Positions 4,571 through 43,484 of a stretch of DNA of 64,000 nt are shown here, in pieces. Within the stretch, counting starts at the first letter, position 1, and each line of letters starts with the position of its first letter. The notes under the pieces are model-generated. The model was not told the DNA's origin and ran no database searches. It saw nothing but the letters and a program-made list of their open reading frames with translations. The DNA comes from Giesbergeria sp. (lineage in GTDB: Bacteria; Pseudomonadota; Gammaproteobacteria; Burkholderiales; Burkholderiaceae_C), in the NCBI GenBank assembly GCA_017985015.1, contig JAGNYI010000001.1, positions 124,001-188,000 of the forward strand. The letters are read 5' to 3'. Made by a program: the position numbers and the translations under genes.

Positions 4571-4837
4571 AGAGCGTGCTATGCACTTTTACATACCCGC
4601 GTTGGGCAGCCAGGCCAGTGAGCGCAAGACGCGACGCGCAGGCAAGGCCCGCGCCTTGCCAAACGGCGCAACGCTGCGGGCGCTGGCCTGGCTGCCCAAC
4701 CCTTCGGGAAAGCCGGGAAAAGGCCCTGCCACTGCGTTGCAGGCCACTTGCGGTGTCCATACCGCGGCGTGTCCTGCGTCTTGTTGCCGGACCTTTTCCC
4801 GGCTTTCGCGGGTATGTAAAAGTGCATAGCACGCTCT
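4571..4837. mobile_element. nested-hairpin element 1 (267 bp) in the 5' end of lolC
   Basis: The ends are a perfect 31-bp inverted repeat (4571-4601 and 4807-4837; outer part AGAGCGTGCTATGCAC). Inside are two further hairpin domains: GGGCAGCCAGGCCAG with CTGGCCTGGCTGCCC, and AAAGCCGGGAAAAGG with CCTTTTCCCGGCTTT. The first encloses the module GCA-GGCAAGGC-loop-GCCTTGCC-AA...GCAACG at 4638-4673. No transposase is encoded. To its left lies ATGCAAATCC (4560-4569), to its right TACGAACTGG, which together would read M-Q-I-P-Y-E-L, a normal LolC start. The element therefore appears inserted after codon 3 of lolC. Confidence 0.75.
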
Positions 4838-6078
4838 ACGAACTGGCGCTCGGCTGGCGCTATACGCGCGCCGGCCGTGCCACGCGCCGCAACGGCTTCA
4901 TCTCCTTCATCTCGGGCGTGTCCATGCTGGGCATTGCGCTCGGGGTGGCGGCGCTGATCATCGTGCTCTCGGTGATGAACGGCTTTCAGAAAGAGGTGCG
5001 CGACCGCATGCTCAGCGTGGTCTCGCACATCGAGATCTTTGCTCCGGGCGGCGCGGCCATGGCCGACCCCGGCCTCACCATGCAGGAGGCGCGGCGCAAC
5101 ACGCAGGTGATCGGGGCGGCGCCTTTTGTGTCCGCCCAGGCGCTGCTGGCGCGCGGCGAAGACATGAAAGGCGCCCTGGTGCGCGGCATCGACCCGGCGC
5201 ACGAGGCCGAGGTGACCGACTTGGCCAGCACCAATGCCGCCGCCGTGGCGCAGCTCGTGCCGGGCGCGTTCAGGGTAGTGCTGGGCGTTGAGCTGGCACG
5301 CGCTCTGGGGGTGGAAGTGGGCGACCTGGTGACGCTGATCGCGCCGTCCGGCCAGGTGACACCCGCGGGCGTGGTGCCCCGCCTCAAGCAGATGACGGTG
5401 GCCGGCACCTTCAATTCGGGCCACTACGAATACGACTCCGCGTTGGTGCTGCTGCACATCGAGGATGCCGAGCGCATCTTCCGGCTCGAAGGCCCGACCG
5501 GCGTGCGCCTGCGGCTCACCGATCTGCACCAGGCGCGCGATGTGGCGCAGCAGCTCGCCGCCACGCTGAGCGGAAACCTCTTGATTCGCGACTGGACGCA
5601 GCAGAACAGCACCTGGTTTTCGGCGGTGCAGCTCGAAAAACGCATGATGTTCATCATCCTCACGCTCATCGTCGCGGTGGCTGCCTTCAACCTCGTCTCC
5701 ACCCTGGTGATGACGGTGCAGGACAAGCGCGCCGACATCGCCATCCTGCGCACCCTGGGCGCCAGCCCGCGCAGCATCATGGCGATTTTTGTGGTGCAGG
5801 GCGCCATGGTGGGCGTGATCGGCACCTTGGCTGGCCTGGCGCTGGGCTTGGGTATCGCCTTCAACATCGACGTGATCGTGCCGGCCATCGAGCACCTGCT
5901 GCACGCGAGCTTTTTGCCCAAGGATATTTACCTCATCAGCAAGATGCCGAGCGAGCCGCAGCAAAGCGACATCGTGCCGATTGCGCTGATTTCGCTGGTG
6001 CTGGCCTTTGTCGCCACGCTGTACCCGAGCTGGCGCGCCAGCCGCGTGAACCCCGCCGAGGCGCTGCGCTATGAATGA
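4822..6078 (+). CDS. lolC: lipoprotein-releasing ABC transporter permease LolC/E
   Basis: About 418 residues. It is the permease of the LolCDE complex, which extracts outer-membrane lipoproteins from the inner membrane and hands them to LolA. The family start Y-E-L-A-L-G-W-R-Y-T-R and the first membrane helix (near residues 20-45, ISGVSMLGIALGVAALII) are clear. A large periplasmic domain follows, then three helices (about 270-300, 320-350 and 385-405). It ends with the FtsX-type tail RASRVNPAEALRYE. A single LolC/E-type gene is expected in this lineage. The original start (ATG 4560) is cut off by the element at 4571-4837. The best surviving start is GTG 4822 inside the element's right arm (V-H-S-T-L-Y-E-L). 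lolD follows after a repeat-filled gap. Confidence 0.93.
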   Translation: MHSTLYELALGWRYTRAGRATRRNGFISFISGVSMLGIALGVAALIIVLSVMNGFQKEVRDRMLSVVSHIEIFAPGGAAMADPGLTMQEARRNTQVIGAAPFVSAQALLARGEDMKGALVRGIDPAHEAEVTDLASTNAAAVAQLVPGAFRVVLGVELARALGVEVGDLVTLIAPSGQVTPAGVVPRLKQMTVAGTFNSGHYEYDSALVLLHIEDAERIFRLEGPTGVRLRLTDLHQARDVAQQLAATLSGNLLIRDWTQQNSTWFSAVQLEKRMMFIILTLIVAVAAFNLVSTLVMTVQDKRADIAILRTLGASPRSIMAIFVVQGAMVGVIGTLAGLALGLGIAFNIDVIVPAIEHLLHASFLPKDIYLISKMPSEPQQSDIVPIALISLVLAFVATLYPSWRASRVNPAEALRYE

Positions 6079-6084
6079 GAAACA

Positions 6085-41278: not shown

Positions 41279-41618
41279 GTGTCCGCCTTGCGCAAAACTT
41301 CATGATGCCACGCTGCGCAGCGGGGCAGCAACGTCAGTGCGCTGACCATCAGGGTGCGCTCCTTTCACTGGCTCAATCGCTTGGTGGCGTGCGTCATATG
41401 GCAGCCAATCGTGGTGATGAGTTTGCAAGAATAGGCCCCACCGATGACGTGCAAAAGAAGCAGCAGCACAAGGCCACCAACTGGCAGACGGAGTAGCCGA
41501 CTTGGTCAGCCCGCGTCGAGCACCCCACGCAATAGTCTGTAGCCGGGCGACATAAGATGTCTTCTAAAAGCTGGCGCGCTATTCGCCGATACACGATGGT
41601 TCGATGGGAACAAGAGTG
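41279..41618. other. divergent intergenic region, 340 bp
   Basis: This gap lies between the His-tailed DMT gene (minus) and the acyl-CoA ligase gene (plus) and must hold both promoters. I see no repeat of the recognised families and no credible gene; small open frames have no family features. Confidence 0.45.
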
Positions 41619-43316
41619 ATGACAAAACCCTGGCTCACACAATACCCGGCGGGCGTGCCCGCCGAAATCGACATGCAGCGTTTCGGGTCGCTGGTCGACA
41701 TGCTCACCGACAGTTGCAAGCGTTTTGCGCATTTGCCTGCGTACCGGTCGATGGGCGTGGCCATGCACTTTCGCGAGCTTGACGAGGCCAGCCGCGCTTT
41801 TGCCGCCTGGCTGCAGAAGTCCGCCGGGCTGCAGCGCGGTGACCGTGTCGCGCTGATGATGCCCAACTTGCTGCAGTACCCGGTGGCACTGTTTGGCGTC
41901 CTGCGCGCCGGCATGGTGGTGGTGAACGTGAACCCGATGTACACACCCCGAGAGCTGCAACACCAGCTCAAGGACGCCGATGTGCGCGCCATCGTGGTGC
42001 TGGAAAATTTCGCGCACACGCTGCAGGAGGTGATCGGCAACACACAGGTGCGCACGGTGGTCACCACCGAGGTGGGCGACCTGTTGCCGCCGCTCAAGCG
42101 CCTGCTGACGAACGCAGTGGTCAAGCATGCGAAGAAGATGGTGCCGGCATGGCGTCTGCCCGAATCGGTGGGCTGGCGCAATGCCTTGGCGGCCGGACGC
42201 GCTCAGCAGCTCGATGCCGTGCCGCTCGGCCACGACGACCTCGCATTTTTGCAGTACACCGGTGGCACCACCGGTGTGGCCAAGGGCGCACAGCTCAGCC
42301 ACGGCAACATGGTGGCCAACGTGCTGCAGGTGGGCGCATGGATGTCACCCAACTTGAACGAGGGCCGGGAGACCCTGATCCTGCCGCTGCCCATGTACCA
42401 CGTGTTTGCGCTTACCGGCGCGCTGTCCTTCTTCAGCCAGGGTGCGCAGGCGGTGCTGATCGCGAATCCCCGCGACATGCGCGATTTCCTCAAGGTGCTG
42501 GCCAGTATGCCCTTTACCGCCATCATTGGTGTCAATACGCTGTTTCGGGCCATGCTCGATGCGCCTGGTTTTGCGGCGATCGACCTGCGTCCGCTCAAGC
42601 TGGCGGTAGCCGGCGGCATGGCGGTGCAGCAGGTGGTGGCACACCGTTGGAAAGAGCGTGCGGGCGTACCGCTGGTGGAGGGCTATGGCCTGACCGAAAC
42701 ATCTCCGGTAGCCATTGCCAACCCAGTCACCATTCAGGAGTGGAGCGGCCAGATCGGCGTGCCGGTGCCCAGCACCGAGGCAGCCATCCTGGACGACGAC
42801 GGCGGGCCCATCCCTCTGGGCGAAGTGGGCGAGATTTGCCTGCGCGGGCCGCAGGTGATGAAGGGCTACTGGAACCAGCCCCAGGAGAGTGCCAAGGTGT
42901 TCACCCCCAACGGCTGGCTGCGCACCGGCGACATGGGTGTCATGGACGAGCACGGAAGCATCCGCATCACAGACCGCAAGAAAGACATGATCGTGGTCTC
43001 TGGCTTCAAGGTCTTTCCCAACGAGATCGAAGATGTGCTGGCGCTGCATCCGGACGTGCTGGAAGCGGCGGCCATTGGGATCAAAGACGAGCGCTCGGGC
43101 GAGGCGGTCAAGGTGGTGATCGTGGCCGGCAATCCGGCACTGACCGAAGCCGATGTGCTGGCGCACTGCAACCGCCACTTGACGGGCTACAAGATACCGC
43201 GCGTGATCGAGTTTCGCACCGAACCTTTGCCCAAGAGCAACATCGGAAAAATCCTGCGCCGCGAGTTGCGCGATAAGGTCGCGACCAACCCGAGAACGCC
43301 GGGAGGTGGCGCTTAG
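41619..43316 (+). CDS. fadD: long-chain fatty acid--CoA ligase (FadD type)
   Basis: 565 residues from M-T-K-P-W-L-T-Q-Y-P-A-G-V-P-A-E-I-D, the usual FadD beginning; ATG 41604 would add five residues. It activates fatty acids with ATP and CoA at the inner membrane before beta-oxidation. AMP-binding motifs: QYTGGTTGVAKGAQLSH near residue 212, EGYGLTETSP near 352, NGWLRTGDMG near 432 and DRKKDMIVVSGFKVFPNEIED near 453. The catalytic Lys lies in PLPKSNIGKILRRELRD. No other beta-oxidation gene adjoins. Its TAG stop lies within the left tip of nested-hairpin element 4. Confidence 0.93.
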   Translation: MTKPWLTQYPAGVPAEIDMQRFGSLVDMLTDSCKRFAHLPAYRSMGVAMHFRELDEASRAFAAWLQKSAGLQRGDRVALMMPNLLQYPVALFGVLRAGMVVVNVNPMYTPRELQHQLKDADVRAIVVLENFAHTLQEVIGNTQVRTVVTTEVGDLLPPLKRLLTNAVVKHAKKMVPAWRLPESVGWRNALAAGRAQQLDAVPLGHDDLAFLQYTGGTTGVAKGAQLSHGNMVANVLQVGAWMSPNLNEGRETLILPLPMYHVFALTGALSFFSQGAQAVLIANPRDMRDFLKVLASMPFTAIIGVNTLFRAMLDAPGFAAIDLRPLKLAVAGGMAVQQVVAHRWKERAGVPLVEGYGLTETSPVAIANPVTIQEWSGQIGVPVPSTEAAILDDDGGPIPLGEVGEICLRGPQVMKGYWNQPQESAKVFTPNGWLRTGDMGVMDEHGSIRITDRKKDMIVVSGFKVFPNEIEDVLALHPDVLEAAAIGIKDERSGEAVKVVIVAGNPALTEADVLAHCNRHLTGYKIPRVIEFRTEPLPKSNIGKILRRELRDKVATNPRTPGGGA

Positions 43317-43484
43317 GATGTCCTGCAAAACTCTACGCGAGTGGGTGTAGTGCGGATCGGGATGGGATGCTAGGCGTGTTTTGCAGGCAATAGCCGTAGC
43401 TATGGGCTGTGAAACGCAACGACGCAGACCGCCCGAGTCCGCGCCATCACGCGCCGCGAGGAGTTATGCAGGAAGTCCCTTAGG
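43312..43484. mobile_element. nested-hairpin element 4 (about 173 bp), 3' of fadD
   Basis: The ends pair imperfectly around TCCTGCAAAACTC (43321-43333) and GAGTTATGCAGGA (43461-43473), with TTAGG on both outer sides. The left part GTAGTGCGGATCGGGATGGG is the same as in element 3. The core is GGCG...TTGCAGGCAATAGC-CG-TAGCTATGG...GCAACGACGCAG at 43374-43426. It overlaps the fadD stop codon and lies before the convergent PAP2 gene. Confidence 0.7.

Follow-up and report, generated by a model that had tools for sequence, protein, structure and literature searches.

What are the palindromic repeats strewn along a 64,000-nt stretch of contig JAGNYI010000001.1 of Giesbergeria sp. (GCA_017985015.1), and what keeps their fold constant while their stems change? 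In this stretch, hereafter the window, a sequence-only reading had described four elements carrying a nested-hairpin module and had proposed that selection acts on its structure, in RNA or in single-stranded DNA (ssDNA). Our analysis confirms the observation and supports the interpretation. It also shows that the elements are mobile palindromic miniature inverted-repeat transposable elements (MITEs) with many different ends and a single core, of which one folded strand is selected. That one core is common to elements with so many ends goes beyond the earlier view.

On its sense strand, read 5' to 3', the module is laid out as AA-GGC-[GCNNNNC]-GCA-[hairpin]-AA-[GNNNNGC]-AAC-GCC, its inner hairpin mostly starting with G and finishing with C. 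The motifs GCA and AA are unpaired, as had been read. The same had been said of GCAACG, but the unpaired piece 3' of stem A' is AAC and an extra GGC/GCC stem closes the outer part, so that GCAACG is partly paired. On 22 modules from the Giesbergeria genome we built a covariance model, R1, with 52 positions and 19 pairs. The module pattern itself matches that genome 50 times and its reversed form 5 times, chance also accounting for part of the 50, and the exact pattern occurs in at least 117 stretches of named genomes. A model search of these stretches (omitting L120 and L218-L233) gave the main alignment of 112 distinct rows, derived from 118 matches in 100 of the 117. Paired cells make up 88.9% of this alignment versus 69.3% in shuffles, changes on both sides are seen in 16 of the 19 pairs, and the covariation score is 0.505 versus 0.154 when shuffled and at most 0.09 with slid partners, in an alignment that leans towards the model structure to which it was fitted. 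The pattern that fetched most rows fixes AAGGCGC, CGCAG, CAAG and GCAACGC, letters which are constant by construction, and leaves the stems free except for their end letters. The 22 Giesbergeria rows, aligned with MAFFT, give a weaker version of the same picture, with 77.0% paired versus 63.9% and a covariation score of 0.357 versus 0.149 shuffled (slides at most 0.17). The fixed motifs with co-changing stems are real, and the compensatory change inferred from four elements is borne out by strong covariation in counts with both shuffled and slid controls.

Which strand is selected can be read from the imperfect pairs, since what pairs as G.T on one strand becomes an A.C mismatch on its complement. 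Among distinct stems, G.T exceeds A.C by 44:3 in 85 outer stems and by 60:7 in 112 inner stems, 104:10 overall, counts that come from related copies and are not independent events. Modules were retained for this comparison by Watson-Crick count alone, which is neutral, and a symmetric filter gives nearly the same result. The ratio is 202:94 in the arm helices adjoining the module (143 of 154 modules) and 24:8 in the end repeats of 27 one-module elements, again among related copies. The excess of G.T over A.C implies that selection sees the module-sense strand folded on itself. This shows that selection acts on that folded strand, as RNA or ssDNA, in keeping with what had been proposed. A cruciform, in which both strands are folded, would not give such an excess. 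The frequent U.G at some stem positions looks RNA-like, while action in cis and the lack of orientation bias, both described below, look DNA-like.

Model R1 finds six elements in the window. The four already described are all present, elements 1 and 2 with two inverted modules and elements 3 and 4 with one, as had been read; only their total was undercounted.

4571..4837: element 1, a two-module palindromic element of 267 bp, directly 3' of codon 3 of a gene
4627..4676, sense on the + strand: module a of element 1, covariance model match with E 2.3e-4
4732..4781, sense on the - strand: module b of element 1, a weak match (E 0.39) with the motif seen by eye
14856..15118: element 2, two-module palindromic, within a coding sequence, its site empty in relatives
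14912..14961, + strand: module a of element 2, E 3e-9 (in the training set)
15014..15063, - strand: module b of element 2, E 2.1e-12 (in the training set)
24686..24854, + strand: element 3, one-module palindromic
24746..24796, + strand: module of element 3, E 2.4e-13 (in the training set)
24860..24925, - strand: fifth element, a short hairpin adjoining element 3, ends drawn by eye, fold z -3.5, newly listed here
24866-24917, - strand: module of the fifth element, of the GCAGGCAGTAC/GTACGACAAG type, E 2.3e-4
43312..43484, + strand: element 4, one-module palindromic
43372..43424, + strand: module of element 4, E 5.2e-6 (outside the training set)
45926..46026, + strand: sixth element, with AGGACTTACGCA-type ends drawn by eye, fold z -3.3, newly listed here
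45952-46002, + strand: the one module of the sixth element, E 7.6e-7

Three of the six modules described earlier (14912, 15014 and 24746) belonged to the training set of the model. The second module of element 1, with its E value of 0.39, is decayed. Elements 1-4 fold as DNA with z of -14.6, -11.0, -7.2 and -7.0, none of 200 shuffles being as good in any of them. A window match with E 0.26, which is the reverse strand of element 3, looks like chance, as do three further matches (E 0.45-0.77).

As expected of MITEs, the elements are gene-free, short and bounded by terminal inverted repeats. Among 137 distinct elements with an outer repeat, 120 measure 90-109, 150-179 or 250-289 bp. In an earlier listing, no outer repeat was found at 46 of 184 module places, some of which are cut by contig ends and some of which may be chance matches of the pattern. 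A second, opposite module at most 180 bp away is detected by the covariance model at 16 of the 100 loci, and each of these 16 pairs points inward, either module being sense from its own end. A central CCC-N3-5-GGG is present in 74 of 86 elements of two-module size versus 5 of 172 off-centre windows. Elements of the two-module form can adopt a four-way junction, which would consist of the end-repeat stem, the sense-module hairpin, a central CCC-NNN-GGG mini-hairpin and the inverted-module hairpin, and would thereby present one sense module on each strand. The ends of 110 elements fall into 27 clusters if 14 of 20 positions must be identical, 36 if 15 must be and 48 if 16 must be; shuffles reached at most 13 of 20, a level that chained almost everything. 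One core is therefore common to elements with many different ends. At L062, two different one-module elements are inserted directly adjacent to each other with a common CTAG.

That these elements move is seen from their insertion sites, for which empty counterparts in relatives had been anticipated and exist for both elements 1 and 2. At the site of element 2, 8 of the 14 relatives examined read through the empty site, five diverge upstream and one (G416) is interrupted nearby by another sequence. Element 1 is common to G400, with no difference over 267 bp, and is absent in all eight other relatives examined. The ~161-bp elements of one genome, G025, are flanked by exact 4-bp duplications in 30 of 41 distinct copies versus 11% in mismatched pairs, so that it is the whole element that moves. 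Within this G025 set the duplications are mostly YTAR, other end types having been judged by eye; a 4-bp YTAR is the target rule of IS5.

Among insertion sequences encoding DDE_Tnp_1 transposases, whose loci were examined in eight genomes and in the Giesbergeria genome, we identified the ends of 14 copies (L275, L306, L307, L311, L318, L319, L321, L323 and L325-L330). These IS5-type DDE insertion sequences have ends that match or resemble those of some module elements, and share the YTAR target seen in G025. In G025, one DDE_Tnp_1 insertion sequence has ends (TTAAGGCAACGCTGA) equal to those of module elements over that stretch; in G065 the ends are similar, with AGAACCTGTT in common before they diverge; and in G223 they resemble a second element type, not the main one. 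The Giesbergeria genome holds only two DDE_Tnp_1 genes, neither on the contig of the window, and the one copy with clear ends has ends that resemble those of Methylonatrum elements (L150, 21/22) and not those of the window. Transposase genes with matching or similar ends, for which the sequence-only reading had suggested a search, are found in other element-bearing genomes. In contrast to the gene-free module elements, the insertion sequences carry a gene, and none of the 14 copies has a match to the module model between its ends; matches in L306, L316 and L326 fall outside the ends. Since no module lies within these insertion sequences, the elements do not fit the usual view of a MITE interior as an internal deletion of its parent, a view also stated in PMC3189936. 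Together, matching ends, target duplications and empty sites show in part that the elements are moved in trans. One DDE insertion sequence of G223, at L326, has a two-module element for a neighbor, no more than ~60 bp from its end.

Where does selection on the core act? In G025 we compared 49 copies, the union of 41 found by the model and a set ranked by whole-element similarity (37 copies of 40 listed, the best 40 of 306 candidates scored). Private variants fall in the core as freely as elsewhere (13 of 48 core sites versus 39 of 113 others, p 0.46). By contrast, variants transmitted to at least two copies affect 2 of 48 core sites versus 27 of 113 others (p 0.003), and both of those in the core sit in the hairpin loop. 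In the 37 similarity-ranked copies the private sites number 13/48 in the core, 15/69 in the arms and 15/44 in the ends, and the transmitted ones 2/48, 11/69 and 6/44. Changes at paired sites (41 copies) run 9:1 for wobble versus A.C when transmitted and 9:8 when private. Core variants that arise but are rarely transmitted suggest that inserted copies decay freely and that copies with a working core are those that spread. Given that the cell contains intact copies as well, any such effect of the core would need to be exerted in cis. With moderate power, these data support selection in the transposing lineage and in cis, not on each inserted copy.

How could a folded core help an element that lacks a gene? 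We favor, tentatively and at close to an even chance, a single superfamily of palindromic MITEs whose cis-acting folded core aids propagation and which are moved in trans by IS5-type transposases. The elements would be non-autonomous transposons, mostly of ~90-110, 150-180 and 250-290 bp, whose end repeats are probably recognized by IS5-type DDE transposases that move them in trans. The hairpin-tip module has been retained while the ends differ widely, and propagation presumably includes a stage in which the module-sense strand is single, either as ssDNA at a fork or gap or as a nascent transcript tied to its DNA. The folded tip might then recruit a host factor or the transposase and raise the odds of being copied, by which the core would offset the lack of a transposase gene of its own. 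The usual picture of MITEs is one of deletion products carried along passively by the ends of a parent; here, MITE families with different ends have in common a core that the parents were not found to contain and whose shape is conserved on one strand, which opens to testing why some gene-free elements outnumber their parents. A broader proposal, which we regard as possible but doubtful, is that a single structured core exists across Pseudomonadota, perhaps beyond, as a folded strand needed in cis for efficient transposition with dozens of IS5-like end types. If true, a class of transposition for which double-stranded ends have been considered sufficient would include a step that depends on structure.

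Several findings weigh against a folded core that assists IS5-type movement. Both the binding partner and an RNA form of the module are hypothetical. A MITEPsy1-like IS5-type element on pRSB105 is without the module, and among 20 elements fetched by a AGGGAAACRCTGATT end (both ends within 400 bp, Thioalkalivibrio/Methylonatrum-type loci), the same ends enclose no core in L278, L287 (54 bp) and L294 (90 bp). The model matches 16 of these 20, and L286 is module-like by eye; for the three without a core, deletion in place and movement in a core-less state are both possible. In G025, the test of interaction between private and transmitted variants gives p 0.07 and concerns one genome only, and 41 of the union copies were found by the core model, which favors intact cores. 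No clear target duplication is seen at elements 1 and 2. As for the enzymes, the main G223 element type has no matching insertion sequence among those found, G433 and G435, both with many such ends, have no DDE_Tnp_1 match, and G294 and G306 hold only one broken DDE_Tnp_1 each.

Could the module instead act as RNA at the site of insertion, as a transcription or processing element through which the host tolerates insertions, so that those bearing it survive? A put-like antiterminator, as in phage HK022, or a protected hairpin would be candidates for such a role. The wobble use (104:10) is RNA-like, a sense module is met first from either side of transcription in the 16 loci with two matches, and divergent gene pairs are the rarest setting of the 41 G025 copies, with five, against 13 between convergent genes and one unknown (flanking genes called by a simple open-frame score). 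However, the one-module copies between co-directional genes are unbiased, nine lying with the genes and 13 against them, and the absence of an orientation bias argues against a local RNA function for the host. Moreover, private mutations hit the core no less readily than other sites, which means that copies are not preserved once inserted, and we consider this explanation unlikely.

The variety of ends raises a different idea, that the core itself is mobile or recombining and passes as folded ssDNA among MITE bodies. The same core does sit in 27-48 end clusters, at the tips of long palindromes, and elements with the same ends and no core exist. There is also a precedent in integron attC sites, which move as folded strands and, like the module, fold from one specific single strand and keep their unpaired bases fixed while the stems vary. 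But attC sites have paired RYYYAAC/GTTRRRY boxes, and these are absent here: the module has no paired GTT/AAC boxes, its AAC is an unpaired bulge and its stem A is variable. The arms beside the core differ from family to family, the core-less L287 and L294 are missing a large part of the arms too and look like deletions rather than empty sites, and the 4-bp duplications show the whole element moving. A core that travels by itself is, on this evidence, quite improbable.

Strand switching is also known to correct long palindromes and can produce double changes with no need of selection, and template switching with hairpin repair at replication could shape the palindromes, the paired changes being mutational and the tip kept by descent. 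Such a process perfects pairs and is blind to strand, so it predicts equal G.T and A.C rather than 104:10, and the private changes of G025 are unskewed (9:8), which speaks against a plain mutation bias; there is little to recommend it. Finally, although inverted hairpin pairs with fixed unpaired motifs and a Y1_Tnp gene in 88 of 120 family genomes recall repetitive extragenic palindromic (REP) sequences or REPINs moved by Y1 (RAYT) transposases, no Y1_Tnp match is seen in G025, whose module matches number at least 49, and the 4-bp duplications and DDE insertion-sequence ends point elsewhere, making this origin scarcely credible.

REPs and REPINs nevertheless resemble the module elements in being palindromic, gene-free and often in inverted pairs, with a fixed unpaired motif by a variable stem (PMC3733652). 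The module elements differ in being much larger, with two nested internal loops, target duplications and, in G025, no Y1 transposase. REP hairpins bear a GTAG or CGTC tag at their foot. The module foot is without GTAG, and some modules, in a set fetched by fixed letters, end in GCAACGACG, the complement of which starts with CGTC. The nearest described type is MITEPsy1, a short IS5-type MITE with 18-nt ends and a 4-nt CTAG/YTAA duplication that is active in vivo according to PMC3189936; its target and end type are common with the module elements. MITEPsy1 and its relatives are known from Pseudomonas syringae, P. stutzeri and pRSB105, and the pRSB105 relative examined here is ~97 bp long and not palindromic inside. 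The Pseudomonas fluorescens repeats R0, R2, R6 and R178 are MITE-like families with inverted repeats, R6 being 177 bp with 34-bp repeats; the accessible part of their description mentions no core common to different families (PMC2718517). The elements are not the TMECO triplex repeats, as far as the excerpt of PMC4666352 goes, nor among those described in the portion consulted of a 26-genome survey of non-coding RNAs (PMC8632094). Rfam 15 has no match in the window at the gathering threshold, and the eight matches at E<=10 over six loci (E 1.0-6.5) are all under gathering scores. We found no description in Rfam 15 or in the full-text literature searched, which includes few subscription journals, so that the elements are undescribed as far as these searches reach; a report under another name is possible.

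How widespread is the core? The model search that the sequence-only reading had suggested retrieved many further copies. In the Giesbergeria genome there are 58 matches at E<=1e-3 and 66 at E<=1, among the best 150 of 5918 candidates scored, in a genome that is also the source of the 22 training modules. With that genome included, modules are present in 68 of 120 genomes of the family sample, and in 73 of 276 genomes and 58 of 216 genera of the class sample; genome searches over 40 genomes used stricter filters and capped the number of candidates scored, and their copy numbers are lower bounds. Among 80 listed stretches with the exact pattern are Pseudomonas, Stutzerimonas, Halomonas, Thioalkalivibrio, Nitrosomonas, Methylobacillus, Delftia and Acidovorax, some Alphaproteobacteria (Roseibium, Hyphomicrobiales bins) and single records labeled Desulfuromonadales, Pseudonocardia and Ruminococcaceae. 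The bins could be mislabeled; the record labeled Pseudonocardia, whose title names a strain instead of a bin, contains an element of 167 bp whose ends pair. A search of phage records with one element gave no match, and three stretches are from viral contigs. Relatives of ~264 bp occur in Pseudomonas, Azotobacter and Halomonas plasmids. On the Pseudomonas aeruginosa conjugative plasmid NZ_CP017294.1, genes for an acyl-CoA dehydrogenase and a CoA-transferase flank a decayed element (L441 2501-2764), which shows that the elements can travel on plasmids.

Within the window, two of the elements interrupt genes. Element 1 enters a gene (window 4560-4837) that, by eye, we take to be that of a LolC/LolE-type permease. 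The old ATG opens a frame that stops within the element (open frame 4506-4829); the gene therefore needs another start, perhaps a GTG near 4825 within the right end repeat. A coding sequence that by eye is presumably thioesterase-like (window 14779-15466) is cut in two by element 2.

Two variants of the module were also seen. A second type, with GCAG(A/G)CAGTA...TACG(A/G)CAAG inside, occurs mostly in short hairpins (L076, L089, L094, L045, L077 and window 24860-24925 and 45926-46026) and may form a branch of its own, marked by an internal loop of larger size. In G223 and on a Pseudomonas aeruginosa plasmid, one element half bears a module of another kind, AGGCGCGAGGAGAGAGGTTTGG...CCAAATGAACGACGAGCAACG or a variant form (loci L396, L399, L407 and L441). 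Lastly, many contigs of G065, G294 and the Giesbergeria genome terminate inside elements, which makes the elements a common cause of assembly breaks, and the 52-position model is a marker for annotating both these break points and a large class of unannotated repeats.

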